Of a DNA stretch of 64,000 bases, positions 7,217 to 61,090 are shown one piece after another. The position numbers were made by a program, and so were the translations under genes. The notes below the pieces were generated by a model. That model searched no databases. It was not told where the DNA came from and worked only from the letters and a program-made list of their open reading frames with translations. The stretch comes from Deltaproteobacteria bacterium (lineage in GTDB: Bacteria > Desulfobacterota > Desulfarculia > Adiutricales > Adiutricaceae): the NCBI GenBank assembly GCA_031273455.1, contig JAISRZ010000070.1, positions 1 through 64,000 of the forward strand. The letters run 5' to 3'. Each line of letters begins with the position of its first letter. The first letter of the stretch is position 1.

Positions 7217-8398
7217 CTATACTTTTTGAGATAATTTTTCTTTTAGGGTTAAGCACAAAGCGTCTTGGGGAGTTAATAGTAGTTCTTGCTCAACATAGAA
7301 CAAAGCTTCCTTATGCCTCCCAAGGTACATATATATAAAAGCTAAAGCCAAATTGAGTTTTGGAAAGGTTGGCTTTAACACAAAAGCGAAAGATAATTCT
7401 TTTAACAGCTTAGAAAGTATATAATAATCTAATAATTTAAAATTTCCAGAAGAGACCTCTTCTGGGTCTAATTCATCATATCTAAAATTACCAGAAACAA
7501 TAGCGTCAATAAGCCTACTTAACTCACCATTAATAAGTGTATCATATCTTTGTAATAAAGCTAAAATAGTATTTTGGATGAGATAATCTTTTTTCTCAGC
7601 GGGTAAGCTGGAATACAAAATATCAAAACAATGATCGCTTATGAAATTGCAGTAAGGCAGTTTAACCGGATGAGGGCGGTAAGTGCCTTTAGCGAAAAGC
7701 CTCCTATGGTGCGCTTCCGCCGTTTCACCCTTATCTTGGTAAGTATCTTTCAACCGATAGAACAAAGGCGCATTGATTTGTAAGAACTTTCCCTCAAGAG
7801 CCAATAAAGCTAATAGTTCATTATCAAAAGCCGCGTTATCAGTACTGGCGGTTCTGAATAAATGCTTTACTAATACATCTTGCCTTATGACACCATGATA
7901 TGCGGTACACCAGCCCATTTTTTTAAGAATATTTAGATACCTTTCCGCAGGATCCGCCTGATCAAAAGAAATTAGATCTTTATATATATCAAAAAATTTA
8001 TTGTCTTCATCAACGAATTGACAATAAGAATAGGCTAAAACCGCTTGTGAATCATTTTCCAAAGCTTTAACGCATTTTTCAGCGTATGTAGGTGCGTAAT
8101 AAGAATCAAAATGCAACATAGCATAATATTTTGTGTCGCAATTAGCAACTAATCCCAAAGCATTAGGAAAATACCCATAATTTATAGTATTACGATGGTA
8201 TTCAAATCTTTTATCATGCCTAACCGTATTATAAATTATCCCTTCAGTGTTGTCAGGCGAGTCATTATTAGCTATTATTACTTTAAAATCTCTAAAGGTT
8301 TGGCTCATAAGAGATTCCAAACAACGCGTTAAGAGAGTCCCTTCCTTGCGCCCACCTTTATAAACCGGCATGCCTATTGTTAACAAAGGTTTTTTCAA
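7217..8398 (-). CDS. Family 2 glycosyltransferase with helical C-terminus
   Basis: The N-terminus, LLTIGMPVYKGG followed by LTRCLESLMSQTFRDFKVIIANNDSPDNT, is the nucleotide-sugar binding half of a GT-A (family 2) glycosyltransferase. The expected metal-binding DxD is seen only as LHFDSYY, with one Asp kept. The last 100 residues are helical with a TPR-like pair (AFIYMYLGRHKEALFYVEQEL). It probably adds a sugar to a surface polysaccharide; donor and acceptor are unknown. The start is TTG at 8398 with AAGGAAG upstream. It lies 36 bases downstream of the methyltransferase gene on the same strand and is probably co-transcribed with it and rfbF. Composition is AT-rich, suggesting transfer with the neighbouring genes. 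Confidence 0.8.
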   Translation of the reverse strand: MKKPLLTIGMPVYKGGRKEGTLLTRCLESLMSQTFRDFKVIIANNDSPDNTEGIIYNTVRHDKRFEYHRNTINYGYFPNALGLVANCDTKYYAMLHFDSYYAPTYAEKCVKALENDSQAVLAYSYCQFVDEDNKFFDIYKDLISFDQADPAERYLNILKKMGWCTAYHGVIRQDVLVKHLFRTASTDNAAFDNELLALLALEGKFLQINAPLFYRLKDTYQDKGETAEAHHRRLFAKGTYRPHPVKLPYCNFISDHCFDILYSSLPAEKKDYLIQNTILALLQRYDTLINGELSRLIDAIVSGNFRYDELDPEEVSSGNFKLLDYYILSKLLKELSFAFVLKPTFPKLNLALAFIYMYLGRHKEALFYVEQELLLTPQDALCLTLKEKLSQKV

Positions 8399-8434
8399 TT
8401 TTCTTCCTTAATTTAAACCGATAAATTAATATTT

Positions 8435-9646
8435 TTAAAGCAAATCATTAAAAATAATAACATCAATTCTAGATAAATTATTATCAAAAAGGTAGCTTTT
8501 TATTTCATTAGCGTAAAAAGGATTTAAAATAACAATAAAATCAATCTTTGAAGATTTAATATCTGAAGGCGAAATTATTTTATGCGCAGTTTTACCTATA
8601 TATAAATTAGTTTTAACTGGGTTAATATCAATTAATGTAGAAAAATATGTTCTATCTACATCAAAAAAATTAACAAATGTATAACCTTTTGGCCCAGCTC
8701 CCCAGATAGCCATGTTTTTATTAATGCTAGCGATCTTTTTTAGTGAATTAGCGTATTTACTAAATAAAGAAGAAAAATGATTTTTTAAATCAACTTTTAA
8801 GTCTTTACCAGGCTTTATAAGATTACCATAGTTTTCAATGGCTTTGGCCACAACACATAAATTAATACCTGCAAAGTTAGGAATTACAGATCCTGAATCA
8901 AAACTTGAAATAATTGATTCTACATTAAAACCTGTTAAGCGTAATGCGTTAGTAAGGGAAAACTTGCTCCAATAAGCGCAATGCTCATAATATATATCGA
9001 AAATAGAATTATTATTAACTATCCAATCAAAATCTGGAACTTCAATATAAAGATAACTGTTTAAATCAAGACTATTCCGAAAAGATTTAAGAAATGATAT
9101 TGGATCCGTAATATGTTCGAAAACTTGCCTATTAATAATTGTATCTGGCTTTATTTCAATATCATTACTTGGATAATAAGACTTGACAAATCGAATATTT
9201 TTATCAGGTATATTTAACACACCTTCATAAGAAGTATCAAAGCCATATAACGAACACCCTTTAAGCTTTTCAGCTAATGTGTTTATATAAAACCCTTTAC
9301 CACAACCAACATCAATTATAGTAGAATTATCATTATAAACATTGCTTTTAATCAAATGTTCTATTTGATTATTTATATAAGAAACATAATACGGTGAATA
9401 AGTGAAATCAACACTATAACTTTCTGAATAATTAGTAGTATCAGGTTCAAATCTTGAGTTAAAAACAAGAGAGCAATTATCGCATAAAACGAGATTTATA
9501 TCACCTTTTAAACAGTTTTTAGCCTCTTCTGAAGTATTATAAAATATATTTTGTGTGGTAGGAATATTATTGATCTCAAAAATAGAATTATTTTTGACTT
9601 CTTCACCGCATAAAGGGCATTTATTTTGTAATAACGCTGTTGTCAT
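8435..9646 (-). CDS. SAM-dependent sugar C-methyltransferase, three-domain type
   Basis: The architecture matches NDP-sugar C-methyltransferases such as TylC3. An N-terminal zinc-binding domain has CPLC (about 10-13) and CDNC (about 55-58). A class I Rossmann domain with IIDVGCGKGFY binds SAM. The C-terminal domain, with MAIWGAGPKGYTFVNFF, is the third family domain. Such enzymes methylate a carbon next to the keto group of a 4-keto-6-deoxy sugar. With rfbF next door and rfbG nearby, the likely substrate is a CDP-4-keto-6-deoxyhexose (inference). At 403 residues the length is normal. The gene is far more AT-rich than the surrounding core genes, with many Asn, Ile and Lys codons, a sign of horizontal acquisition. 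Confidence 0.85.
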   Translation of the reverse strand: MTTALLQNKCPLCGEEVKNNSIFEINNIPTTQNIFYNTSEEAKNCLKGDINLVLCDNCSLVFNSRFEPDTTNYSESYSVDFTYSPYYVSYINNQIEHLIKSNVYNDNSTIIDVGCGKGFYINTLAEKLKGCSLYGFDTSYEGVLNIPDKNIRFVKSYYPSNDIEIKPDTIINRQVFEHITDPISFLKSFRNSLDLNSYLYIEVPDFDWIVNNNSIFDIYYEHCAYWSKFSLTNALRLTGFNVESIISSFDSGSVIPNFAGINLCVVAKAIENYGNLIKPGKDLKVDLKNHFSSLFSKYANSLKKIASINKNMAIWGAGPKGYTFVNFFDVDRTYFSTLIDINPVKTNLYIGKTAHKIISPSDIKSSKIDFIVILNPFYANEIKSYLFDNNLSRIDVIIFNDLL

Positions 9647-9711
9647 TATTCCATTTTCAATTATATTTTACCATAATTGTTAAGTTATTTAAGAATAGAA
9701 ACCTACCAAAC

Positions 9712-10488
9712 CTACCAAACTTTCCAAGGCGCGGCTCCGGTTCGCCATTGTTCTTCCAAGAACAACTTATCGCGCGGGGTGTCCATACATTGCCAATAAT
9801 CATAGTGCTTAAAAGCCCCTAATCGCTTTTCCGTAGCCAATACTGGCAAGACATCAGCCTCTAATGAACATTCATCGCCTTTAATATAGCCAAATAGAGA
9901 AGGGTTAGCCACCATAAATCCAGCGTTTATCCAACCTCCCGCTTCGGGTGATTTTTCCAGAAACCCCAAAACCTCATTATTTTGAGGGTCTAGATTTAAG
10001 ACTCCAAAACGACCGCCTAGTTGGATGGCGGTTAAGGTCAAAACTCCCTTAGCGCTCTGGTGGTAGTCGCGTAGTTTATACAAATCAACGTTACTGACCC
10101 CATCGCCATAAGTTAGGAAAAACGATTCATTGCCAACATAACGCTGGATCCTGGCCACCCGTCCACCGGTCATGGTGTTAAGGCCAGTATCGACCAAAGT
10201 GACTCGCCAGGGCTCAGATAAGTTATTAAGTATGTCTATCCGGCCATTATTCTTAAAATCAAAGGTAACGTCAGAACCATGAAGATAATAGTTAGCGAAA
10301 TAATCTTTAATTGTGTTAGCTAAATAACCACAGCAAATTATAAAGTCATTAAAACCAAAATGGCTATAATATTTCATTATATGCCAGAGAATTGGGTGGC
10401 CACCTATTTCTATCATCGGTTTGGGGATGCGATGAACATCCTCGGAAATCCGAGTTCCAAAACCGCCAGCGAGTATAACTATTTTCAT
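9712..10488 (-). CDS. rfbF: Glucose-1-phosphate cytidylyltransferase
   Basis: This enzyme makes CDP-glucose from CTP and glucose-1-phosphate, the first step of CDP-deoxysugar synthesis. The N-terminus KIVILAGGFGTRISEDVHR with IPKPMIEIGG is the nucleotidyltransferase signature. FLTYGDGVSNVDL carries the metal-binding Asp, and WINAGFMV with the C-terminal HYDYWQCMDTPRDK is specific to RfbF. Length (258) is normal. It is first in a minus-strand group with the methyltransferase and glycosyltransferase. Its product feeds RfbG, encoded at 4787-5905. Confidence 0.93.
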   Translation of the reverse strand: MKIVILAGGFGTRISEDVHRIPKPMIEIGGHPILWHIMKYYSHFGFNDFIICCGYLANTIKDYFANYYLHGSDVTFDFKNNGRIDILNNLSEPWRVTLVDTGLNTMTGGRVARIQRYVGNESFFLTYGDGVSNVDLYKLRDYHQSAKGVLTLTAIQLGGRFGVLNLDPQNNEVLGFLEKSPEAGGWINAGFMVANPSLFGYIKGDECSLEADVLPVLATEKRLGAFKHYDYWQCMDTPRDKLFLEEQWRTGAAPWKVW

Positions 10489-15993: not shown

Positions 15994-16052
15994 CTTATCC
16001 TTGACAAGGTTCAAAAGTACGGCACCTTGAACCTTAATATATCAAGGATAAG
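15994..16052 (+). promoter_or_regulatory. Nested hairpin covering the transposase ribosome site
   Basis: CTTATCCTTGA (15994-16004) pairs perfectly with TCAAGGATAAG (16042-16052), and inside it AAGGTTCAA (16006-16014) pairs with TTGAACCTT (16027-16035). The 3' arm contains the AAGGATAAGG ribosome site 8 bases before the transposase ATG. A TTGACA at 15973-15978 with a weak TTATCC 16 bases later would start transcription inside the structure. Transcripts entering from outside would therefore fold and hide the ribosome site, while those from the element's own promoter would not. This guard against read-through is known for IS10 and similar elements; its action here is inferred. Confidence 0.7.
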
Positions 16053-16060
16053 GCAACATA

Positions 16061-17185
16061 ATGAAAAAATCGGATTTTCATTATCCCCATAAAGAGGTAA
16101 ATAAAAAATTAACAGTTGATAATAGCTATATAAAGGATATTATTATGGTTATTATTAATTTTTTAGCATGTTATGCTTCAGTAACAGTTGCTAAACAGTT
16201 AATAATTACTATATTTATTGCATTAAATGTAAATAACAATACAATTTCTCAAATTGTCAATGTTAGCACTCGGACAGTCCGCAATATTAAAAATAAAATC
16301 GCTTCCGGTGATATAGGCAATATCTTTTCCATTAAGAAAAATGGAAAGAAAAATGGAAGAAAAAGAAAATTAGAGCATATTAAACAAGATATTATCAATG
16401 AAATAGAAGCAAAAAATTATCATAATTTAAAACAAATAGTAAATATGATTGAAAATAAATTTAGTATCAAAGTCTCAGAAAGTACCGTAAGTAGATTTTT
16501 AAAATCAAATAATATTAAACGTTTGAAATGCGGCTCCTTTCCAGCAAAAGCGGATGTAAAAAAACAACGCGAGTTTTGCGAACATGTTTTGCTCCCTTTG
16601 ATTAAAAGAGCTACCTCTGGCTCCGTTAAGCTGTTGTTTATGGACGCTTCCCATTTTGTCATGGGCAATGATTATATCGGGTACGTCTATAGCAAGAGTC
16701 GGCGATTTATAACGACATTCTCGGGACGCATGCGGTATAATGTTCTTGGGGCGTTAGATTTTACAACAAAACAAATTACGACAGTGTCAAATGATACCTA
16801 TATTACGGCAACCCAGGTTTGTGAGCTACTCAAGAAAATTGCCGCGCTGTATGTAGATAAGCCTGTACATATAATACTTGACAACGCAAAATATCAAAAA
16901 TGCAAAACTGTTATTGAAACCGCTACACAACTTGGTATTAATCTGATATTTATACCACCTTATAGTCCAAATCTAAACTTAATTGAGAGATTTTGGAAAC
17001 ATGTTAAGAGCCAACTGAGTATAAAATACTTTGATAAATTTTCATTATTTAGTGAAACTATAGATAGCATCATTAATAATGCAGACAAAGATGATAAAAT
17101 AGTTCTCGACAGTCTTATTACTGGCAATTTGCAGCTATTTGATGATTTTGAATCAATTGACAATACAACATATATCAAAAAGTGA
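16061..17185 (+). CDS. IS630-family transposase
   Basis: The 374-residue DDE transposase cuts and joins the element ends. The N-terminal third is a helix-turn-helix DNA-binding region (NNNTISQIVNVSTRTVRNIKN and a second unit SESTVSRFLKSNNIK). The catalytic triad is visible as MDASHF (first Asp), IILDNAKYQ (second Asp) and PNLNLIERFWKHVK (Glu), with the family motif FIPPYSPNLN just before it. The frame is intact and length is normal. It is AT-rich compared with the host genes, consistent with foreign origin. Translation is probably limited by the hairpin directly upstream. Confidence 0.95.
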   Translation: MKKSDFHYPHKEVNKKLTVDNSYIKDIIMVIINFLACYASVTVAKQLIITIFIALNVNNNTISQIVNVSTRTVRNIKNKIASGDIGNIFSIKKNGKKNGRKRKLEHIKQDIINEIEAKNYHNLKQIVNMIENKFSIKVSESTVSRFLKSNNIKRLKCGSFPAKADVKKQREFCEHVLLPLIKRATSGSVKLLFMDASHFVMGNDYIGYVYSKSRRFITTFSGRMRYNVLGALDFTTKQITTVSNDTYITATQVCELLKKIAALYVDKPVHIILDNAKYQKCKTVIETATQLGINLIFIPPYSPNLNLIERFWKHVKSQLSIKYFDKFSLFSETIDSIINNADKDDKIVLDSLITGNLQLFDDFESIDNTTYIKK

Positions 17186-17359
17186 TTAAAAACTGCTAAC
17201 GCAATTTGACTAATAGTTTTTTAGCGTAAATATAATATTCATCTAAATAGTTTAAGAAAAAAAATAAATTGAAATGGTCATATCGCTATGACTTGAATTT
17301 TAATTTGTTGAGAATTTATTTCAATAACATTTTATAATTAATCATTACCTTCCGATACG

Positions 17360-17405
17360 GTCGTCACCATTTTTGGTCGCAACACATTTTTGTCGTCACC
17401 ATTTT
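17360..17405 (+). repeat. Subterminal direct repeats inside the IS right end
   Basis: GTCGTCACCATTTT occurs at 17360-17373 and again at 17392-17405, inside the right end of the insertion sequence. Such subterminal repeats can be extra transposase-binding sites. They are present only on this side as far as I can see. Confidence 0.5.
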
Positions 17406-17436
17406 ATACGACCCAAGGGTTTTTGTAGGCAAACAT

Positions 17437-17464
17437 AAGTGGAAAATCTTTTTGACGCTGAGTA
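17437..17464 (-). repeat. IS630-type right terminal inverted repeat
   Basis: This is the inverted partner of 15781-15808 with one mismatch at position 16 of the repeat. The TA target duplication follows at 17465-17466. Confidence 0.92.
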
Positions 17465-17660
17465 TAGAAAAAAGAGGGACTCCAAAAAGAGCGTAAAATA
17501 CAAATTTTTATGTTGTTTCCTCTTGACAACTCTAGATTAACTCGCTAAAATATATTACAATAGTTAATTGGAACGCAGATATTATTTTTGTTATTATTTA
17601 CGCCTATAGGGCATATCAATACATATTTTTAATTATGTATAATTTATTTAGGAAATACCT

Positions 17661-18572
17661 ATGACAATTTGTATAACAGGCGGTTCTGGTTTTGTCGGCT
17701 CCGCCCTGGTCCGAACCCTAGTTTCCCAACATATAGACCTAGAAGTAATTACTAATCGCAAACAATTAAACGAAGAAATTAATTCTCAAGTTAAACTTAT
17801 TAACGCCAATTTACTCACGGAATCTGGCCGTAGAGAGGCTATTAAGCTTTCAAAGGCGGACACTTTAGTCCATTTGGCCTGGTACGCTGAACCGATCGTC
17901 TACACCCGATCGCCTTTAAACCTGGACTGGCTATATTCTAGCTTAGATTTGATTAAGCTATTTAAAGAAAACGGTGGCCAGCGTTTGATCATACTAGGGA
18001 CCGGCTTTGAGTACGACTTTTCCTATGGAGGCTGTTTTTCCGAGTCGGACCAAACTGGCCCTCTGACCTTTTATGGCCAGACCAAAGACGCTCTCCGCCG
18101 GGTAGCTGAAGGGTACTCCGCTTTAACTGGTTTATCTTTTCTTTGGTGCCGCCTTTTCTGGCCCTTTGGGCCTGGTGAGGCTCCCGATAGATTACTGACG
18201 GGCTTGTACACTTTACTGATTGACAACCAACCAGCCGTCTGCCGGGCTGGCAATCTGAAAAGGGATTACATTTTTATTGAGGACGTGGCTGAGGCTCTCT
18301 CTATGGCCATTCGCTCGAAGATCGAAGGCGTTTTGAATATAGCTTCCGGGGAAAGCGTTGAGCTTGGCTATATGTCTAGAAAACTAGCCGAATTAATTGA
18401 CCGCCGGGATTGGCTTAGCGTCGGGGAAGTTCCAGTGACTAAAGAGAATCCCCTGGAAATTAAAGCTGATACGCGACGACTTAGGGAAGAGTTAGGGTGG
18501 AGTCCTCGATATTCGATCGATAGAGGCATAGAGTTGTTAGCGCGACACTTTTTAAGCGCTATAAAAAGCTAA
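17661..18572 (+). CDS. NAD(P)-dependent sugar-nucleotide epimerase/reductase
   Basis: This extended short-chain dehydrogenase has 303 residues. ICITGGSGFVGSALV at the N-terminus is the Rossmann glycine motif. HLAWYAEP lies after beta-4, the catalytic pair is YGQTK (Tyr-x-x-x-Lys), and DYIFIEDVAEAL with NIASGESVEL is the substrate-side end. Size and layout resemble CDP-abequose/paratose-type reductases and other 4-keto sugar reductases. With RfbF and RfbG encoded nearby, reduction of a CDP-keto sugar is a reasonable guess, but specificity cannot be read from these motifs. It lies just right of the insertion sequence, and the IS may have separated it from the other sugar genes. It converges on the flagellar operon with a 28-base gap. 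Confidence 0.8.
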   Translation: MTICITGGSGFVGSALVRTLVSQHIDLEVITNRKQLNEEINSQVKLINANLLTESGRREAIKLSKADTLVHLAWYAEPIVYTRSPLNLDWLYSSLDLIKLFKENGGQRLIILGTGFEYDFSYGGCFSESDQTGPLTFYGQTKDALRRVAEGYSALTGLSFLWCRLFWPFGPGEAPDRLLTGLYTLLIDNQPAVCRAGNLKRDYIFIEDVAEALSMAIRSKIEGVLNIASGESVELGYMSRKLAELIDRRDWLSVGEVPVTKENPLEIKADTRRLREELGWSPRYSIDRGIELLARHFLSAIKS

Positions 18573-40440: not shown

Positions 40441-40588
40441 GATTTCACCTTTTTAAAAAAAAATGTATAATGACATAATTGGATCATTCGTTTAAGGCCG
40501 CGCTTAATGGGCTCTAGAAGGCGGTGTCTCTAATTTAACAGACTTGGCCAACAAAGCGAAACCTTATCTCTATTTTTGCGGTGGAACC

Positions 40589-42082
40589 ATGGCCAAATCC
40601 AGTGGGCCCGACCTTTTTACCTCCCAAGAAACCTTTACCCCCACCACTTTATGCGATCGGCTACAGGGTAGCTTGGACCAAACCTTTGGGCCAATCTGGG
40701 TCGCCGGGGAAATCTCCGCTACGACCAAACCCCCTTCCGGTCACCTCTACTTTAGCCTAAAAGACGCTCGTTCCCTAGTTAAAGCCGTGGTCTGGAAAAG
40801 CCGGGTCCCCCAACTAGGCGGGCCGGTGGAAAACGGCTTAAAAGTCTTGGCCCGGGGGTCTTTATCCGTCTATTCCCCCCGGGGGGAGTTCCAGCTAATC
40901 GTGGAGCGCATCAAACCCCAAGGCGAGGGGGCTTTGCGGCTAGCCTACGAAAAACTGAAGGTCCGTTTAACCAACGAAGGTCTTTTTAAGCCCGAAAGAC
41001 GGCGGCCTCGGCCTTTTTGGCCTAAAAGAACGGCGGTTTTAAGCGCCGCTGGCGGGGCTGGTCGGCTAGATTTTCTTTCCACGGCCGTTAAAAGATGCCC
41101 CTCCGCCTCCATCGCCCTTTACCCAGTCCGCGTCCAAGGGGCTGGGGCGGCGGAAGAGATCGCGGCGGCCTTAAACGACCTTAACCAGTGGGGCGGCTTT
41201 GACCTAGTGGTCATTACCCGGGGCGGCGGCAGTTTAGAGGATCTTTGGGCCTTTAACGAAGAGATTTTAGTCCGAGCGGTGGCCGCCTCGCGGGTCCCGG
41301 TTCTAGCGGCCATCGGCCATTCCACGGACGAGTCCTTAGTGGAGCTAGCCGCCGACGCTCGGGCTATCACCCCCACGGCGGCGGCGGAAGCCGTCTTTCC
41401 TGATTTAAGGCTTTTAGCCACTCAAGTTAAAGAGCGGGAAAGGGCTTTAGCCGTAGGTTTTAGGGCGTTAATTAACCGCCGCTGGGAGTTTTTAGGGTCA
41501 TTAAAAAACCGCCTTAATCGGTTTGAGACTTACCTCCGCTTAGAGCGGCAACGGCTCGACAACCTCGGGGAAAGCTTAGCCGCCAACGGGCGTCGGTTTT
41601 TCCAGGCTATTCGCTTAAAACTTATCTCCTTAACTAAAGAGCTAGCCTACCGCTCCCCGGCCCAGAGCTTAAAACGCGACTTTAATGAGCTGAAAAACGT
41701 GACCAAAGCCTTGCCCATAGCCATGTCCCGGCGTCTTTTAAGCTCCCGCCGGGAACTAGCGGCTTTAACGGCCAGGTTAAGCCAAATCTCCCCGGCGGCG
41801 CGGGTTAAGCGCGATTTAGCTGACTTAAAGAAGGTCCACCAAGCCCTCCCCTTAGCTCTAGCCCGCCGCTTAAACGACTCGCGCCGGGATCTAACGGCCT
41901 TGTCCAGTCGGTTGCGGCTAGTCTCGCCTTTAGGGATATTAAGTCGCGGTTACGCTTTAATCACCACCGAGGACGGGACGATCCTCCGGTCAGGCTCGCA
42001 AGTGGCCCCAGGATCTATAGTTAACGCCCGTTTAGCCCAAGGCCAGATAACCGCCCAAGTGACCCAAACCCAGGACGCTTAG
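40589..42082 (+). CDS. xseA: Exodeoxyribonuclease VII large subunit
   Basis: Catalytic subunit of the single-strand-specific exonuclease VII. The N-terminal OB domain has GPIWVAGEISATTKPPSGHLYFSLKD. The catalytic domain shows TAVLSAAGGAGRLDFL, DLVVITRGGGSLEDLWAFNEE and AIGHSTDESLVELAADARAITPTAAAE. A long coiled-coil C-terminus includes two related segments of about 60 residues (each with KRDxxxLKxVxxALPxAxxRR). I choose ATG 40589 over an in-frame TTG at 40544, which would add 15 unrelated residues. That gives 497 residues, somewhat longer than usual because of the repeated coil. Confidence 0.93.
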   Translation: MAKSSGPDLFTSQETFTPTTLCDRLQGSLDQTFGPIWVAGEISATTKPPSGHLYFSLKDARSLVKAVVWKSRVPQLGGPVENGLKVLARGSLSVYSPRGEFQLIVERIKPQGEGALRLAYEKLKVRLTNEGLFKPERRRPRPFWPKRTAVLSAAGGAGRLDFLSTAVKRCPSASIALYPVRVQGAGAAEEIAAALNDLNQWGGFDLVVITRGGGSLEDLWAFNEEILVRAVAASRVPVLAAIGHSTDESLVELAADARAITPTAAAEAVFPDLRLLATQVKERERALAVGFRALINRRWEFLGSLKNRLNRFETYLRLERQRLDNLGESLAANGRRFFQAIRLKLISLTKELAYRSPAQSLKRDFNELKNVTKALPIAMSRRLLSSRRELAALTARLSQISPAARVKRDLADLKKVHQALPLALARRLNDSRRDLTALSSRLRLVSPLGILSRGYALITTEDGTILRSGSQVAPGSIVNARLAQGQITAQVTQTQDA

Positions 42083-42110: not shown

Positions 42111-42326
42111 ATGGATAAAGACGACTGGCGGGATAACGACGCCCAAGACGATCAGAGGCGCGATAAAGTGGAAATAGCTTTAAAAGAAGCCGAACGACGC
42201 TCCAAAGACCTCATAGCTGACCTAGAAAAGCGCGTGGCCTCGCTTAAATCGAGGGTCGCGACGGAAAAAGCTTACCTGGAGTTCCTTTCGCGAACGAAAA
42301 AGAATCACGAAAGGCTCATCCACTAA
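42111..42326 (+). CDS. Small coiled-coil protein after xseA
   Basis: A 71-residue charged protein, predicted almost wholly helical (ALKEAERRSKDLIADLEKRVASLKSRVATEK). It starts 28 bases after xseA with an AAGGAG ribosome site, so it is translated from the same transcript. The position is where xseB often lies, but the sequence lacks the XseB pattern of an N-terminal FEKALxxLExIVxxLE and a Gly-Asp turn. I do not assign it. It may be a partner of the XseA coiled coil or an unrelated small protein. Confidence 0.6.
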   Translation: MDKDDWRDNDAQDDQRRDKVEIALKEAERRSKDLIADLEKRVASLKSRVATEKAYLEFLSRTKKNHERLIH

Positions 42327-42637: not shown

Positions 42638-44579
42638 TAAAATCAAGTGGTTACCGCCCTTAACTAGCGAAAATAGCGAGATCCTCGCGTAAGCTAACCT
42701 TCTTTTGATTTTGGTCAATAATATCAATCGATATTATCTAAAAAACACTATAAAATCAGGCGCTTAAGGTCAACCAATTTTTTTAATCGCCCTAGACCAA
42801 CAGCCCAAGACCAACACCATAGCCTAACAGTCCTAGTCCAGACCCGCCGCCATAAATCGTCTAACCTGGGCGATAAGGCCCATCTTCGCCGCTTAAAGCT
42901 CTTCATTAACTAATATTGTAGTCGCAAGCGTTCGCCTTGGGTCAGATAATATCCGCCATAAAATCAAATAGTTACGTCTATCAGGACTTTATTTAACCAC
43001 CGCTATCGACCATCTATCCCAAGATAACCGCCCAACTTTTACCCCGCTCGTCCAAAAATTGACAATCAGTTTTAAAAACTAGCGTAAAATCAATAGGTTA
43101 AGCCCATTAAAAAACTTTGTTGGCCCCGGACCTATCTACCATTTCCCTTTCCGCTCAAAACAGTCAGGTTAAAGTTTTCTTAACCTCAGCTATACCGCCC
43201 AACTGTCAACGCGGTCGTTAGAGTCAGTCTATAGTTATTAAAAATCAGCGTAAAATCAATAGGTTAAGCCCATTAAAAAACTTTGTTGGCCCCGGACTCT
43301 CCTCCACTTCCCTTTCCGCTCAAAACAGTCAGGTAAAAGTTTTCTTAACCTCGACTCGCCCGCCTAACTGTCAAGACGAGCGCCAGAGTCAGTCTATAGC
43401 TACTAAAAATCAGCGTAAAATCAATAGGTTAAGCCCATTAAAAAACTTTGTTGGCCCCGGACTCGCCTCCACTTCCCTTTCCGCTCAAAACAGTCAGGTT
43501 AAAGTTTTCTTATCCTCGACTCGCCCGCCTAACTGTCAAGACGAGCGCCAGGTCGCTCCATATCTTTAAAAATCACCATAAAATCAAGATGTTAAGGCTT
43601 TGTAAAAACAGGATTTTTCAAGACAGCGCTCTCTCCTAATCCGATCCAACTAGCCCGATCCAGCTAGCTAGAGCGCCTTTCTCCTGGCCGCGAAGCGACT
43701 GGCCCTTTTTTTAGGCTTCTAGATTCCGGGGATATCTTCAAAAATGATTATTAAAATCAGGTAATTAGGGCCAGTCAGAGGATTCATTTACCCTAAATCT
43801 AGTTACCAGATCATCCTTAACCACAACCTAGCTAGGACGCCTTACCGTCCGCCGCCAACTGACCGGCCCTTTAAACTAAAGTCGTTGGAGTTGGTCAGTA
43901 TCTCCTAAAACCCTCTAAAATCAAGAGGTTAAGGCTAACAAAATCTTTTGGGGCCCCAGATTTTCCGGCCAAACCAGCCGACTAAAACTAGCTGGTTCTC
44001 GCTCTGGCGACCGACCTTGAGGGCTAGGGCCGTTAGAGTCGGTCGATAGCTTCTAAAATATTATTAAAATCAGTTAGTTATCGTCCAGCGGAGTATTCAT
44101 TCACCCCGGACATAGCCACCTGACCCACCACGACCCAAAAGCGCTCTAAAAGTCCTTAAACCAAGGCCAATTCTTAGCTTTGGCCGGGTTAAACTTGGCC
44201 CGAGGCGGACCAGGGTTAGGCTATTTTTTTTGTCAAAAAAAAGATTAAGGTTTGTTAAAGGACCGTCCGCGATCCACATATCTAATAAACTTCCAAACGC
44301 CTCTAATTTCACCCTCCCCAAAAAATAATTAAAAATTTTTTTCATAATAAAATCAATACGTTAATAAATTTTCTCCACAACAATTCCTGAAAATAAAGTG
44401 AGCTATCGAGCGATAAAGTGAGAATTAGACAGTGTATACCACTCTCAATAACCACTGGCCTTTATGCTCATTCTGTGAAACCCCGCTTAAAAAGCCCTCT
44501 TGAGCCTATTTGGGGGAAGCCTCTAAAAGCTTGAGTTCAAGTCATCTTCAAAAAAATCATTAGTAAAATCAATAGGTTA
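42638..44579 (+). repeat. Twelve-copy TAAAATCAnnnnGTTA array, diverged ~165 bp units
   Basis: Motif copies begin at 42638, 42751, 42959, 43085, 43251, 43416, 43579, 43752, 43916, 44065, 44348 and 44564. All twelve keep TAAAATCA exactly. The last four bases are GTTA in ten, CTTA in one and ATTA in one. Copies at 43085, 43251 and 43416 are identical (TAAAATCAATAGGTTAAGCC) and head near-identical units of about 165 bp. Several copies are preceded by a second AAAATCA about one helical turn (11-12 bases) upstream. All are in the same orientation, reading toward the DnaA-like gene. The pattern is that of protein-binding iterons. Confidence 0.9.
44321..44400. other. AT-rich candidate unwinding element
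   Basis: This is a run of A/T-rich sequence containing poly-A and poly-T tracts, motif copy 44348-44363 and the near-DnaA-box TTCTCCACA. It is the most AT-rich part of the tract and the best candidate for a duplex-unwinding element if this is an origin. Confidence 0.4.
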
Positions 44580-44801: not shown

Positions 44802-46274
44802 ATGGTTACAAACGAAAATGTGCCGGAGATGGATTTTCGCGGGATTGGCGGTCCGGCCTCCGAAGCCGATGACCAGCGGTCTGACGTCCTCGAGGACCGC
44901 TCGGTCGACCCCAATCCCCCGCTCGTCTCCGAAGAAGCCCCCCCATTGACCGATATTTGGGAAGCGGTCAAGGAGGAATTGTCCAAAACTGTGAACGCCA
45001 TGGACTTTAAGGGTTGGATTCAACCCATTAAGGCCCAGTCTAAAGGCCAGTCCCTGGTTTTGGTTTCCCCGAACAAATTTTCCCTGGACTGGGTCCAGGA
45101 TAATTATTTGGCCACGATCACCGAGTTAGTCAGACCAATCCGCTCGGATATCTCGGTGGAACTGATCTTAGATCCCAAAGCCCCCTCGGCCCCGGCCCCG
45201 AAACCCCAGCCTAAGCCGGCGGCTCAACGCGAATCACGGCGTTCCCTAACGCCCCTACGTTTAAACCCGAATTTTTCCTTCGAGGAATTTATCCCGGGCG
45301 ACCCCAACCGTTTACCTTTCGAGGCTTCCCAAGGCTTCGCTCGCGGGGATAATCTCGGCGCGGACATCTTACTCCTTTCCGCTGACCATGGCTTGGGCAA
45401 AACCCACTTGATTCAGGCCGCGGCCCAGAAGTTCAGGGCGCTTAACCCGGGTAAGGTCATTTTTTATTTGAGCGCCGAGCAGTACACCTCCGAGCTGGTC
45501 AGTTCATTAAAGCGCCATAATATTGAGGATTTCAAAAACAAGTACCGCAATTCTTGTGACTTTTTCTTGGTTGAGGAGATTTGCTTTCTCTGCGGCAAAG
45601 CCAAGTTCCAAGAGGAGTTTAATTACACCCTCGATCTCCTGTTAAACCATGGTAAGAAGATTATCCTGACTTCCTCCAAGGATCTTCGCGATATGAACCA
45701 CCTTTGCCCGCCACTCAAAAGCAAGTTGCTGGCGGCTTTACGGACGCCCATTAACCCCCCGGATTTCGAGACTAGGGTGGCCATCCTCGCCCATAAGGCC
45801 CAAAAAAGCGGCTTACGGTTGGAGCGGCCAGTGGTGGAGCTCTTGGCCGAAAAGCTTTTAAACGATGTCCGTCTGCTTGAGGGTTGTCTCATAACCATCT
45901 CCGCCACGAGTCGGTATCTACGGCGTCCGGTTAATATCGAGCTAGCTCGTCAATGTCTGGGCCAGGTTCAAGAGTCCACCAATAACGAGCTGACCTTAGA
46001 CCGGATCATTAAACTGGTCTGCCAGAACTTCCACCTGGAGGAAGCGAAGCTCACCTCCAGTTCCCGGCGCAAATCCGAAAATGAGGCCCGGAGTTTAGGT
46101 ATGTACTTGGCCCGTTGCCTAACGGACAAGACCTTCACGGAAATAGGCGCGGCCTTTAACCGGTCTCACTCCTCGACTATGCGGTCCATCAATCAAGTGA
46201 CCGAGCGTCTGACGCGCGACCAGAAGCTGAAGGATAAGATCGACTTTATAACTGGGCAACTGATCCAGAATTAG
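44802..46274 (+). CDS. Divergent DnaA-like initiator protein
   Basis: The 490-residue protein has DnaA architecture: domain I (about 50-125), Pro-rich linker (126-150), AAA+ domain (155-380) and DNA-binding domain IV (395-490). LSAEQYTSELVSSLK and FKNKYRN align well with DnaA. Key positions differ. Walker A reads ADHGLGKT (194-201), with the first Gly replaced. Walker B reads VEEICFL in place of IDDIQFL. KSKLLAAL (306-313) stands where the arginine-finger SRFxxGL belongs. The domain IV loop FGGRDHTT reads FNRSHSS, one residue shorter and without the base-contacting Asp. The sensor-2 Arg (NDVRLLEG) is kept. ATG follows a TGGTGG site. It is either the working initiator of this lineage with changed specificity or a DnaA paralogue or regulator. 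No dnaN follows. Confidence 0.85.
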   Translation: MVTNENVPEMDFRGIGGPASEADDQRSDVLEDRSVDPNPPLVSEEAPPLTDIWEAVKEELSKTVNAMDFKGWIQPIKAQSKGQSLVLVSPNKFSLDWVQDNYLATITELVRPIRSDISVELILDPKAPSAPAPKPQPKPAAQRESRRSLTPLRLNPNFSFEEFIPGDPNRLPFEASQGFARGDNLGADILLLSADHGLGKTHLIQAAAQKFRALNPGKVIFYLSAEQYTSELVSSLKRHNIEDFKNKYRNSCDFFLVEEICFLCGKAKFQEEFNYTLDLLLNHGKKIILTSSKDLRDMNHLCPPLKSKLLAALRTPINPPDFETRVAILAHKAQKSGLRLERPVVELLAEKLLNDVRLLEGCLITISATSRYLRRPVNIELARQCLGQVQESTNNELTLDRIIKLVCQNFHLEEAKLTSSSRRKSENEARSLGMYLARCLTDKTFTEIGAAFNRSHSSTMRSINQVTERLTRDQKLKDKIDFITGQLIQN

Positions 46275-46360
46275 GCTATCGCCCCTAAACCACCTATCTG
46301 GATCGTTAAAAGGCCCGTCCCGGATTGTTTTTCGCGGGCGTGGCCAAGGATAAAGGCCTC

Positions 46361-46639
46361 ATGGACCGGATCATTGAACTTTTACGCCAGTGCTTCCAAG
46401 TGGAAAAAAGCGAGCTTATCTCAATTTCGCGGCGGAAGTCCTGTCATAAAGCTCGGAGTTTGGGTATGTACTTGGCCCATCGCCTAACGGGCCAGACCGT
46501 AGCGGAAATAGGCGAAGCCTTTAACCGGACCGAAAGCGCGGCTATTCACGCCATTAACCAAGTGGCCGCCCGTTTACCCCAAGACCTGGAACTAAAAAAC
46601 ACGGTGGCCTATTTAACCGGCCAACTACTCCAGAACTAG
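46361..46639 (+). CDS. Stand-alone DnaA domain IV-like protein
   Basis: About 93 residues aligning along their whole length with the last 92 residues of the preceding DnaA-like protein (MDRIIELLRQCFQVEKSEL against LDRIIKLVCQNFHLEEAKL, and identical SRRKS, ARSLGMYLA and TGQL segments). It carries only the DNA-binding domain, with no ATPase. It is evidently a partial tandem duplication that became its own gene. The recognition loop differs from the parent (FNRTESAA against FNRSHSST). ATG 46361 has AAAGG just upstream; TTG 46325 or GTG 46340 are alternatives. It probably competes for, or co-binds with, the upstream protein's sites. It ends 8 bases before hisC. Confidence 0.75.
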   Translation: MDRIIELLRQCFQVEKSELISISRRKSCHKARSLGMYLAHRLTGQTVAEIGEAFNRTESAAIHAINQVAARLPQDLELKNTVAYLTGQLLQN

Positions 46640-57637: not shown

Positions 57638-60600
57638 TTACCCGATCAAGCTTAGAGCTAACTGGGAGAGGCTGTTAGCCTGGGCCAGCATGGAGGTGGC
57701 CGCCTGGGCGAGGACGTTGTTCCGGGTGAACTCCGTCATCTCGGTGGCCACGTCCACGTCAGAGATCCGGCTCTCCGAGGCTTGGAGGTTTTCCGCCTGA
57801 ACAGTCAGGTTGGTCATGGTGTTCTCCAAACGATTCTGGAGGGCGCCAAGGTCAGCCCGGATCTTGTCTTTAGTGTTAATGGCTTCGGTAATGGCGTCCA
57901 AAGCTTCCTGAGCCGTGGACTGGGTCCGGACCTCGCCACCAGCCCAGGGGCTGTCGGCGGCGTTTTGGATTTCCACAAAGCTGTTACGATCCATACCGTT
58001 AATGATCTTGGCCGATAGAGCCGGGGTGTTGATCTCCCCAGCGTTAGCGATCCAAAGATCTCTTTCTTTGCCCACGTCCCGACCATTCAAGGTCACGTTC
58101 CAGACCTCAGTGCCGAGGTAAGAGCGGGATTGGGTAGGCGTCATTGTGCCCCAGTGTTCCCCGCCCAAAGTAAAGGAAGTGCCGTCCTCATGCATTTCCG
58201 CGGCGGCCACGTTCTCGAAATCAACGTAGTCTAGAGCCGCCCTTGAAGCGCTGTCGCTGCCACCTACATCGCAGGCCAATAGATCGTTTTTGTTCCCGCC
58301 CTCTTTGGCGAAAACGTAAACCATATCGGCTTTATTGCCATTGGAGTCAACCGACTGGACCATAGCCCAAAACTCGCTGTTAGCGTTATGGTTAATGGCC
58401 GAGGCTAGAGCGAAAGCCCCAAAATTAGACTGGCCGCTATTTTCTCCACCTTTTAAAAACTGCGAGGTGCCAGCGCTGGCGACCATAATTTTGGTCTTGC
58501 TAATGTCGACCGCCCCATCAACGACGATCGTTGTGGTATAGGCGGACGACCCTTCATTTTTAACCTTAATAGAACTGAATCCTTTAATGTCACCAGTTGA
58601 AATGGCCACTGGCGGAAGGCTAGTCGCCGTTTCCCTTATCCTACCCTTTCCAGTGCCTTGTTTATCAGCTAAAAGGTTAGTGATAGACTCGGCCAGAGCT
58701 TGCGCGATGTAGGAAACCGTGGAATCAGCCGCAAGCGCTGAAAAGCCATTGCCTGCAGCTACGTCAAAACCAGTGGCGCTGGGACCAGCGATAAAGGCGC
58801 TGGAGCCAATATAGGCCGTTGCGCTCAAATCATCTGTGCCAACTGTATCAACTTTGAGTTTGGCGTTCAGATTGTCCAAGCCGAGGTACGGTGGATCCGC
58901 GAGTCCTCCCCCGTCAAGTTTGACCGACTGTTGACCCTTCAATAGGGCGTCACTTTGCAGCTTAGCTATAAGGTCACCAACGCCCGCATTGACTAGGTTA
59001 AGAATATCGGTGCTACTGTGTCCAGCATTTAAGATATTATAAAGAGCGTTTCCGGGGTCATTTAACGCAGTGGTCAATACCGTGTTTAGATGCGCGCTTC
59101 CGGTACCGGAAGCCTTAAATATAATGCTGCTTGTGCCGGTTCCACCAGAAATAATAATTGCTAATTGTTTCACACTAAACGCTGAAGCGATTGTCGCGCT
59201 TTCCGTCCAGTTACCTGCGGAATCAACGTAAATACCAGCGGATAATGATACTTTACCTCGGACATTTCCACTACTACCAATAGTGGTGCCTACCATACTT
59301 GAGGTGATCAGTGTTCTAGAGCCTCCAGCGTCATAAGTATACGTCAGATTTAAGGCTGAATGCTTGTAGTAGTCATCGTTAAGCTTGGCTTGAGCAGAGG
59401 TAATAAGAAGGTTCTTAGCGATTTCCGAAGTCTCTCCAGTCGCGCTCATAGTAAACACGGGATTTATCGCTGTAAATGTGGACCTAAACTTTAATCCGGC
59501 GTTATTTATGGCTGAGTTAACGTCACCATTAAAAGCTAAATACGCGTTCCTCGTCACAAAACTATCGGTAAAGTTGAAAGTGCAGGTCGCCACGTATTTC
59601 GCGGAATTTGTGTTTTCAATGTAATAGACGACTTCGTGTAAGCCAAAAAGTGAGGCCAGTTCGGAGTCGGTGGTCCAATTGCCGCTAGTGTTGGCGTAAA
59701 CGCCAGTATTGACTATCAGGGTTTCCTTACCGTTAATGGTTCTGGTTTCCTGGTTAATGGCCTGATCGCCGTTCCCGCTTTTAGTGACCGTGGTGGAGCC
59801 AACCTGAAAACCAGTTGTCACCCCAGCGTCAACAGTCAGTCCTGAAGTGCCCAAACCCAAAGAATTCCAGGCTCTGTTTAACGCGCCAACCAAACTATCC
59901 CTAGCCTGACTGAGGGCCAGAGCGGAATTCGCGTTAGTGGCCGACCCAACGCCGGAGACCGTAGCCGCGGTGAATCCCATATTTCTTAGAGCGTTCCTGT
60001 CAATCCCAGCGGCGCTAAGCGCTTTGATTTGGGCATCATTTAACGTATAACCTAAAGCGATGTTCTGGAGAACCGAGTTGTTAGTATACGATCCTTTCCC
60101 CGTAACGGTAAAAGTGTCAGGGACCGCCGGGACTTCGGCCGAAAATTCCCCGCCAGCCACCCTAGCGCTACCAAAGACGTAAGCCTCATCGCCGATGCAG
60201 ACGGCCACAGTGCCGCCGCTCAAAACTTGCTTATACAAACTAGTGGCGTCAAACTGAATGCCCACGCGGCTCTGGCTACCGGCGTTAACCTTGTTGACGA
60301 GAGCTTGGAGGCTATCGCTGGAAGTGACCGTGTACCGGCCAGCCAAATACCGACCAGTCAAAAGGGCGGAATCGCTATTTTGCGTCCAATCCCAGTTGTA
60401 GCCATAACTAAAAGTCTGGCCGCTGGTGAAACCAGCGTCTCCGTCTAAAGAGCTGTAACCGGCGGTGCAGCAACCAGGTCCGGCTAAAGGCCCTGAGCCA
60501 GCCGCGCCTTGGCCCCAAATGTCGTTTTTGGCGTCGCCGCCGACCCGTAGACCAGTGGAGCTAGTGGCCCGAGAGTCCCCGATGTTAACAAAGTAGTAAT

Positions 60601-61090
60601 CCTCAGCCGGATTGTTGCTGACCCCAAAGTGAATCTTAAGGCCCTGCCCACCGTGCTGATTGGTGACCGAACCATCCAGGAGCTTAATCCCGTTGAAGTT
60701 TGTGGCGTTGGCGATACGGTCAATTTCCGCGGCCATGGCCTGATACTCGGAATTGATGATCTCCCGCTGGGCCGTGGTGTAAGTGCCGGTAGACGCTTGC
60801 TCGGCCAGTTCCTTCATCCGGATCAGTTTCTCGTCAATGACGCCCAGAGCCCCATCAGCCGTCTGGATCATGCTGATGGCGTCAGCCGTGTTCCGGATGC
60901 CCTGGTTCATGGTGGCGATGTCCGCCCGCATCATTTCCCGAATGGCCAGACCAGCGGCGTCATCGGCGGCGCTGTTAATCCTTAGGCCTGAGGACAGCCT
61001 TTGGACGCTGGTGGACAATCTACCGTAGATTGTCCCCAGATTTCTGGCGGCGGTTTGCGCGGCCATGTTGTGGTTGATAATAAGAGCCAT
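57638..61090 (-). CDS. fliC: Giant flagellin, 1150 residues
   Basis: Filament subunit of the flagellum. The N-terminal D0/D1 domain (1-140) is typical: ALIINHNMAAQTAARNL, QRLSSGLRINSAADDAAGLA, and NFNGIKLLDG. The C-terminal D1/D0 domain (about 1060-1150) ends ATSMLAQANSLSQLALSLIG. Between them are about 900 residues of surface-exposed variable sequence rich in Thr, Ser, Gly and Ala; common flagellins have 280-550 in total. The gene has no frameshift. AAGGAGGA precedes the ATG and a strong terminator follows. The central part (about 58.6-60.1 kb) is less GC-rich than the ends. Export should use the gate encoded at 18.6-34.1 kb, with FliA as sigma factor. Confidence 0.95.
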   Translation of the reverse strand: MALIINHNMAAQTAARNLGTIYGRLSTSVQRLSSGLRINSAADDAAGLAIREMMRADIATMNQGIRNTADAISMIQTADGALGVIDEKLIRMKELAEQASTGTYTTAQREIINSEYQAMAAEIDRIANATNFNGIKLLDGSVTNQHGGQGLKIHFGVSNNPAEDYYFVNIGDSRATSSTGLRVGGDAKNDIWGQGAAGSGPLAGPGCCTAGYSSLDGDAGFTSGQTFSYGYNWDWTQNSDSALLTGRYLAGRYTVTSSDSLQALVNKVNAGSQSRVGIQFDATSLYKQVLSGGTVAVCIGDEAYVFGSARVAGGEFSAEVPAVPDTFTVTGKGSYTNNSVLQNIALGYTLNDAQIKALSAAGIDRNALRNMGFTAATVSGVGSATNANSALALSQARDSLVGALNRAWNSLGLGTSGLTVDAGVTTGFQVGSTTVTKSGNGDQAINQETRTINGKETLIVNTGVYANTSGNWTTDSELASLFGLHEVVYYIENTNSAKYVATCTFNFTDSFVTRNAYLAFNGDVNSAINNAGLKFRSTFTAINPVFTMSATGETSEIAKNLLITSAQAKLNDDYYKHSALNLTYTYDAGGSRTLITSSMVGTTIGSSGNVRGKVSLSAGIYVDSAGNWTESATIASAFSVKQLAIIISGGTGTSSIIFKASGTGSAHLNTVLTTALNDPGNALYNILNAGHSSTDILNLVNAGVGDLIAKLQSDALLKGQQSVKLDGGGLADPPYLGLDNLNAKLKVDTVGTDDLSATAYIGSSAFIAGPSATGFDVAAGNGFSALAADSTVSYIAQALAESITNLLADKQGTGKGRIRETATSLPPVAISTGDIKGFSSIKVKNEGSSAYTTTIVVDGAVDISKTKIMVASAGTSQFLKGGENSGQSNFGAFALASAINHNANSEFWAMVQSVDSNGNKADMVYVFAKEGGNKNDLLACDVGGSDSASRAALDYVDFENVAAAEMHEDGTSFTLGGEHWGTMTPTQSRSYLGTEVWNVTLNGRDVGKERDLWIANAGEINTPALSAKIINGMDRNSFVEIQNAADSPWAGGEVRTQSTAQEALDAITEAINTKDKIRADLGALQNRLENTMTNLTVQAENLQASESRISDVDVATEMTEFTRNNVLAQAATSMLAQANSLSQLALSLIG

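Follow-up and report, generated by a model that had tools for sequence, protein, structure and literature searches.

What does a row of short repeats, all in one direction, do in front of a dnaA gene, and which protein would read it? The question is raised by the window analysed here, a 64 kb stretch from the genome (G000; 4.24 Mb, 157 contigs, 94% complete) of a bacterium that is probably a termite-gut inhabitant. The initial annotation described twelve copies of TAAAATCA at 42638-44579, and this is confirmed: all twelve lie on the + strand, and none was found on the - strand of the region. Its title, a twelve-copy array ending in GTTA, was slightly generous, since the TAAAATCA core is intact in 12/12 boxes and the full TAAAATCANNNNGTTA (N4GTTA) in 10/12 only, the remaining two ending in CTTA (box 42751) and ATTA (box 43752). 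Against 0.02 full TAAAATCANNNNGTTA expected by chance in the 64 kb window, ten were observed, and 0/100 shuffles of the window contained ten or more. The array is flanked by dnaA on one side and by xseA and a short ORF behind it on the other; the features of the locus are the following:

40544..42082, + strand: xseA (exonuclease VII large subunit), upstream neighbour
42111..42326, + strand: 71-aa ORF after xseA, in the xseB position, without family match
42638..42653, + strand: box 1, TAAAATCAAGTGGTTA
42751..42766, + strand: box 2, TAAAATCAGGCGCTTA, CTTA replacing GTTA
42959..42974, + strand: box 3, TAAAATCAAATAGTTA
43068..43596, + strand: tandem duplication, 165-bp unit, 3.2 copies, 89% matches (TRF)
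43085..43100, + strand: box 4, TAAAATCAATAGGTTA, in a 165-bp unit
43251..43266, + strand: box 5, TAAAATCAATAGGTTA, AAAATCA 11 bp upstream (43241)
43416..43431, + strand: box 6, TAAAATCAATAGGTTA, AAAATCA 11 bp upstream (43406)
43579..43594, + strand: box 7, TAAAATCAAGATGTTA, AAAATCA 11 bp upstream (43569)
43752..43767, + strand: box 8, TAAAATCAGGTAATTA, ATTA replacing GTTA
43916..43931, + strand: box 9, TAAAATCAAGAGGTTA
44065..44080, + strand: box 10, TAAAATCAGTTAGTTA
44348..44363, + strand: box 11, TAAAATCAATACGTTA
44564..44579, + strand: box 12, TAAAATCAATAGGTTA
44802..46274, + strand: dnaA, 490 aa, divergent 'a'-type (Pfam DnaA_N, Bac_DnaA, Bac_DnaA_C)
46325..46639, + strand: stand-alone DnaA domain-IV paralogue, 104 aa, DnaA_C domain, directly after dnaA
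46648..47742, + strand: hisC, downstream neighbour

Spacing from box to box was 113, 208, 126, 166, 165, 163, 173, 164, 149, 283 and 216 bp. The three near-identical 165-bp units described before were recovered, with boxes 43085, 43251 and 43416 standing in tandem units of ~165 bp, and the extra AAAATCA previously noted upstream of several boxes precedes four of them (43251, 43416, 43579 and 44564), at 11 bp in three cases and at 12 bp in one. Three units that are 165-bp tandem duplicates would suit a product of neutral tandem duplication, a reading to which we give, together with a mobile repeat, tandem promoters or an RNA element, a negligible probability: what is shared across loci, species and non-tandem copies is the 16-mer only. 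Tandem promoters or terminators were rejected, promoter- and terminator-like sites being no commoner in the array than in shuffles, and so was an RNA element, for which there was no Rfam match. With regard to the surroundings, the gene order dnaA-hisC-pta is found also in two congeners (G003 and G004). Elsewhere in the window, two low-GC stretches (8001-10000 and 16001-18000; 31-32% vs about 52%) are possibly acquired DNA, and a very large flagellin-like protein of 1150 aa is encoded at 57638-61090 on the - strand.

A genome-wide count, as proposed with the first description, showed that the exact 16-mer clusters and is not evenly spread, with 33 copies vs 2 of the reversed control and 10/33 in the window array. 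Read in one direction, the consensus of the box is 5'-T(A)A(W)(W)TC(A/C)A-N3-(G/C)TTA-3', generalised as TNAWWTCMANNNSTTA, and this form was counted against its reversed control in each whole genome of the seven species (G000-G006) of the window's genus, g1. The counts were 74 v 6 in G000, 45 v 5 in G001, 200 v 7 in G002, 87 v 8 in G003, 69 v 8 in G004, 38 v 2 in G005 and 86 v 9 in G006, an excess of about 8- to 29-fold in 7/7 species, and the excess was much weaker in the remaining genera of the family. The orthologue check that had been suggested was equally favourable, with same-strand boxes upstream of dnaA in 5/5 testable species of the genus: allowing <=1 mismatch, the 2.5 kb upstream of the gene held 11 boxes in G000, 8 in G001, 6 in G002, 2 in G005 and 2 in G006, and none on the non-coding strand in these five. 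No shuffle (n=200) matched any of the 12 observed dnaA-upstream or mnmG-downstream counts. Since TNAWWTCMANNNSTTA was partly derived from dnaA-upstream regions, circularity is less of a concern for the genome-wide counts, for the mnmG arrays presented below and for the fixed strand. The two dnaA-proximal boxes roughly keep their positions between species while drifting in sequence. Box 11, at which the intergenic region reaches its AT maximum (82% AT around 44318-44397), has a counterpart in genus members at a similar distance to dnaA, and box 12 has counterparts such as TAATTTCAAGCTGTTA (G005), TGATTTCCATAGGTTA (G001) and TGATTTCAATATGTTA (G006). An unbiased search with gapped k-mers recovered the box in G000, and the same search gave no common motif in most other genera. 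Because the rows recur across the genus, the arrays are real and, as judged from their sequences, the boxes are conserved protein-binding sites, attributable neither to chance nor to local duplication.

Beyond what the initial annotation had described, the box is genus-wide, it forms a second and better conserved array beside mnmG, and many single copies occur in promoters. The second array lies just 3' of mnmG, nearly all on the same strand, in 7/7 species. In G000, it is on another contig than the window, next to mnmG/gidA (676 bits for the mnmG match), comprises three exact and two variant copies, and has surrounding genes that are mostly convergent on it; the six congeners have 3-9 boxes each downstream of mnmG, nearly all on one strand. 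The box is embedded there in a conserved unit of ~40 bp, roughly A-rich-ataaTAAAATCAATATGTTAtctattcaatgagcttttt. Outside the arrays, 14/16 single exact copies of G000 are intergenic, and a box stands upstream of a gene for an alpha-2-macroglobulin of ~1,940 aa, as it does in G003 and G006 upstream of genes of the same length in the same neighbourhood. The box-to-start-codon distances vary too widely for a core promoter. Several other arrangements were observed. Two boxes on opposite strands and 34 bp apart lie at the hisD 3' end in G000 (L074:365-430, C71), and G004 alone shows a further, third array, with five ~95-bp units carrying TAAATTCA-type boxes (L162:5516-5921, C336), which adjoins an apparent group II intron 3' end. 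In another genus, g10 (G021, G015 and G025; L151, L158 and L174), rows of TTTGATCA...TTTGATCAATTGATC are found downstream of mnmG; these are a different iteron at a location kept with the mnmG array of g1.

We then examined the gene that the window array precedes. It had been called DnaA-like, and kinship with DnaA was borne out; the reserve in the name was not, as the product scores above the NCBIfam DnaA equivalog cut-off (TIGR00362, 353.6 v 343.9 bits) and is the only DnaA of the genome, the DnaA_C search matching only this gene and the adjoining 104-aa domain. A tree of 54 DnaA proteins disclosed two old types in the class, the canonical b, which has GG(R/K)DHST in most members, and a, which is one residue shorter there. 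All type-a proteins of the window's family (29/29) fell into one group (support 100/99), beside type a of the sister family. Whereas class relatives keep a canonical type-b DnaA besides type a, the window's genus is without a canonical DnaA, and type a is alone in most genera of the family. In view of the class relatives with two DnaA types and of work on termite guts (PMC9137090), this family is probably Adiutricaceae (Desulfarculia). Genus g6 (L210, L211 and L212) has an additional b-like DnaA with GGRDHSTV and a very long branch, in which PWGKT replaces the Walker A GLGKT in G029 and G023. In many type-a members, the Walker B D-D is replaced by E-E.

In E. coli, the 3' half of the DnaA box is read by the helix that begins at residue 434, and its 5' half, TTA, by R399 (PMC5742627). 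The downstream protein had been described as altered, and its recognition helix is indeed changed in G000 (E. coli numbering): D433 is changed to S and T435 to S, and one glycine of GGRDH, before R432, is deleted. The minor-groove arginine R399 and H434 are retained; the canonical DNA-reading set (R399, GGRDHT) as a whole is not present. At the position of the arginine finger (E. coli R285), R is found in most of the family and K in G000, G002, G005 and G006, so that the G000 protein lacks the arginine expected of a DnaA. The DnaA of G004 has K for R399, R for H434 and a disrupted arginine-finger region, and the boxes of this species keep the consensus.

The location of the arrays at dnaA and mnmG, the fixed direction of the sites, the altered recognition helix and the lack of a TTATCCACA cluster make DnaA the natural candidate to read the box. 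We see about an even chance, or slightly better, that the window array is a genus-specific cluster of initiator-type sites read by this sole DnaA, which is a divergent paralogue and whose recognition helix is rebuilt; DnaA as the predicted and most likely binder of the box is held with similarly balanced confidence, and the boxes probably represent a rewritten initiator-recognition code. Against DnaA are the length of the box, 16 bp vs the 9 bp of the DnaA box, the K that often takes the place of the arginine finger in DnaA of the genus, and the fact that most other genera of the family have a similarly altered DnaA without recognisable arrays. Moreover, since G004 has kept its boxes with a degraded DnaA, either this DnaA has adapted via other contacts or some other protein reads the box. 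A global regulator, a nucleoid protein or a replacement initiator might thus bind the boxes and control dnaA among many genes, DnaA not being the binder. Such a binder would account for the copies in each genome, about 40-200 and mostly scattered, for the nearly always intergenic single copies of G000, which stand at variable distances from genes in the manner of regulator sites, for the copy kept upstream of the unrelated alpha-2-macroglobulin gene, for a two-part motif longer than a DnaA box, and for the persistence of the boxes in G004 despite its degraded recognition helix and arginine-finger region. However, the arrays of the window genome sit at dnaA and at mnmG, a frequent oriC neighbour, and we regard this alternative as rather unlikely. 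We know of no protein of such a kind. The other binder that had been put forward, the stand-alone domain-IV protein (46325-46639), might act as a dedicated repressor, its gene adjoining dnaA and its product having a DnaA_C domain that is 54% identical to domain IV of the adjoining dnaA. Among the genomes of the family that were searched, only G000 has its gene; the other genomes of the genus all lack it and yet carry boxes. It is thus excluded as the general reader of a box found throughout the genus, and even a part as repressor is highly improbable.

Were the single DnaA of the genome the reader, it would read the box in one direction, and a head-to-tail row at the dnaA promoter would assemble DnaA, with repression of dnaA and titration of the initiator as the outcome; its sister at mnmG would then serve as origin or as a further titration site. 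Our analysis points to dnaA autoregulation and initiator titration as the best-supported role that the window array would have. Several bacteria have mnmG as a classical neighbour of oriC, which makes the array beside it a better origin candidate than the array at dnaA, although the surrounding genes in G000 mostly converge on the mnmG array; an autoregulation and titration cluster at dnaA with an origin candidate at mnmG is the most likely arrangement. The window array could instead be oriC itself, perhaps with the mnmG array as the other half of a two-part origin. It is a directional cluster of boxes beside dnaA and includes, around box 11, an AT-rich stretch; the genes at 18.6-37 kb are mostly leftward and those at 40.5-57 kb rightward, and two-part origins flanking dnaA have been described (PMC5043019). 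We nevertheless consider this improbable. The sign of the GC skew stays the same along the window, although skew is weak in the family and uninformative for placing the origin, and in G000 the window's contig is not the one that carries the parS array. In G029, a near-closed relative from another genus of the family that is without arrays, GC skew was only weak and patchy in 20 sampled 20-kb stretches, and dnaA and mnmG lie about 2.2 Mb and about 1.35 Mb, respectively, from the rsmG-parA-parS locus. The parS arrays themselves are tandem and unusually long (L227:7185-8388 in G000 C132, L228:17164-19905 in G006 C6 and L233:34-994 in G003 C187), with 15-27 sites that differ from TGTTTCACGTGAAACA at no more than 3 positions; in G000 and G003, many of these are 40-43 bp apart. 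They adjoin a conserved aminotransferase-ilvD pair and, in G006, have rsmG and parA-parB-parB on the other side.

It had also been proposed that the box replaces the classical one. In agreement with this, the G000 genome has no TTATCCACA cluster, only 53 scattered copies, and the region upstream of its dnaA contains 0 TTATCCACA and 0 TTATNCACA; the replacement itself can only be presumed, as TTATCCACA clusters were likewise not seen next to dnaA in the class relatives examined, and loss of the classical box is therefore not tied to the window-type DnaA. The TTATNCACA pair pattern, taken as a positive control for canonical clusters, matched only 2/60 genomes, almost none among class relatives, and is thus uninformative as a control. 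Few protein-DNA pairs in bacteria are as conserved as DnaA and its 9-bp box, and the initiator-origin code is usually regarded as nearly fixed. We tentatively propose, as a possibility, that most genera of the family have lost canonical DnaA and that the divergent DnaA paralogue, or another initiator, uses iteron-like boxes that turn over between genera. The boxes of g1 are TAAAATCA-N4-GTTA, whereas g10 has the unrelated TTTGATCA...TTTGATCAATTGATC rows in the same place downstream of mnmG. If this is true, the initiator-origin code would have been rewritten repeatedly at a kept location, and a clade with a divergent sole DnaA and a genus-specific 16-bp box would be a natural test of change in the initiator code. 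Origin finders depend on the classical DnaA box, and prediction keyed to TTATCCACA would miss such a clade.

A word-based search of the open literature, with subscription papers outside its scope, gave no description of a TAAAATCA-type box among its top-ranked papers, and the array was compared with known systems. Spaced direct repeats are shared with iteron origins (plasmid Rep, Vibrio RctB), systems with initiator autoregulation and titration; unlike these, the window array has dnaA and no Rep or RctB gene beside it. Like parS (TGTTTCACGTGAAACA), the boxes are conserved, repeated chromosomal sites of the same organisms, but parS is palindromic and lies at the separate rsmG-parAB locus. That a box can drift with its DnaA is illustrated by Helicobacter pylori (TCATTCACN) and other Campylobacterota, which have related forms such as TTWTTCACN (PMC5043019), and by Thermotoga maritima (ACCTACCAC; PMC10316083), although these species-specific boxes are 9-mers with a CAC core, while the g1 box extends to 16 bp and does not keep CAC. 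It does not conform to TTWTNCACA or a close variant either, its consensus being TNAWWTCMANNNSTTA: it has a separate 3' (G/C)TTA part, and at best its WTCA resembles the middle of the E. coli TTWTNCACA. The array has in turn the attributes of a DnaA-box cluster, that is, clustered asymmetric sites at dnaA or oriC, above chance and conserved; as with E. coli oriC and datA and with Pseudomonas putida, there is a cluster before dnaA together with scattered single chromosomal copies. The sites are short, asymmetric and in one direction, as in E. coli datA, whose boxes all have one direction (PMC5742627), and the dnaA promoter region of P. putida has 12 DnaA boxes of unsettled function (PMC8203912). 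In repressing dnaA and titrating the initiator, the row at the dnaA promoter of the window would have its analogues in the datA cluster and perhaps in the 12-box dnaA leader of P. putida.
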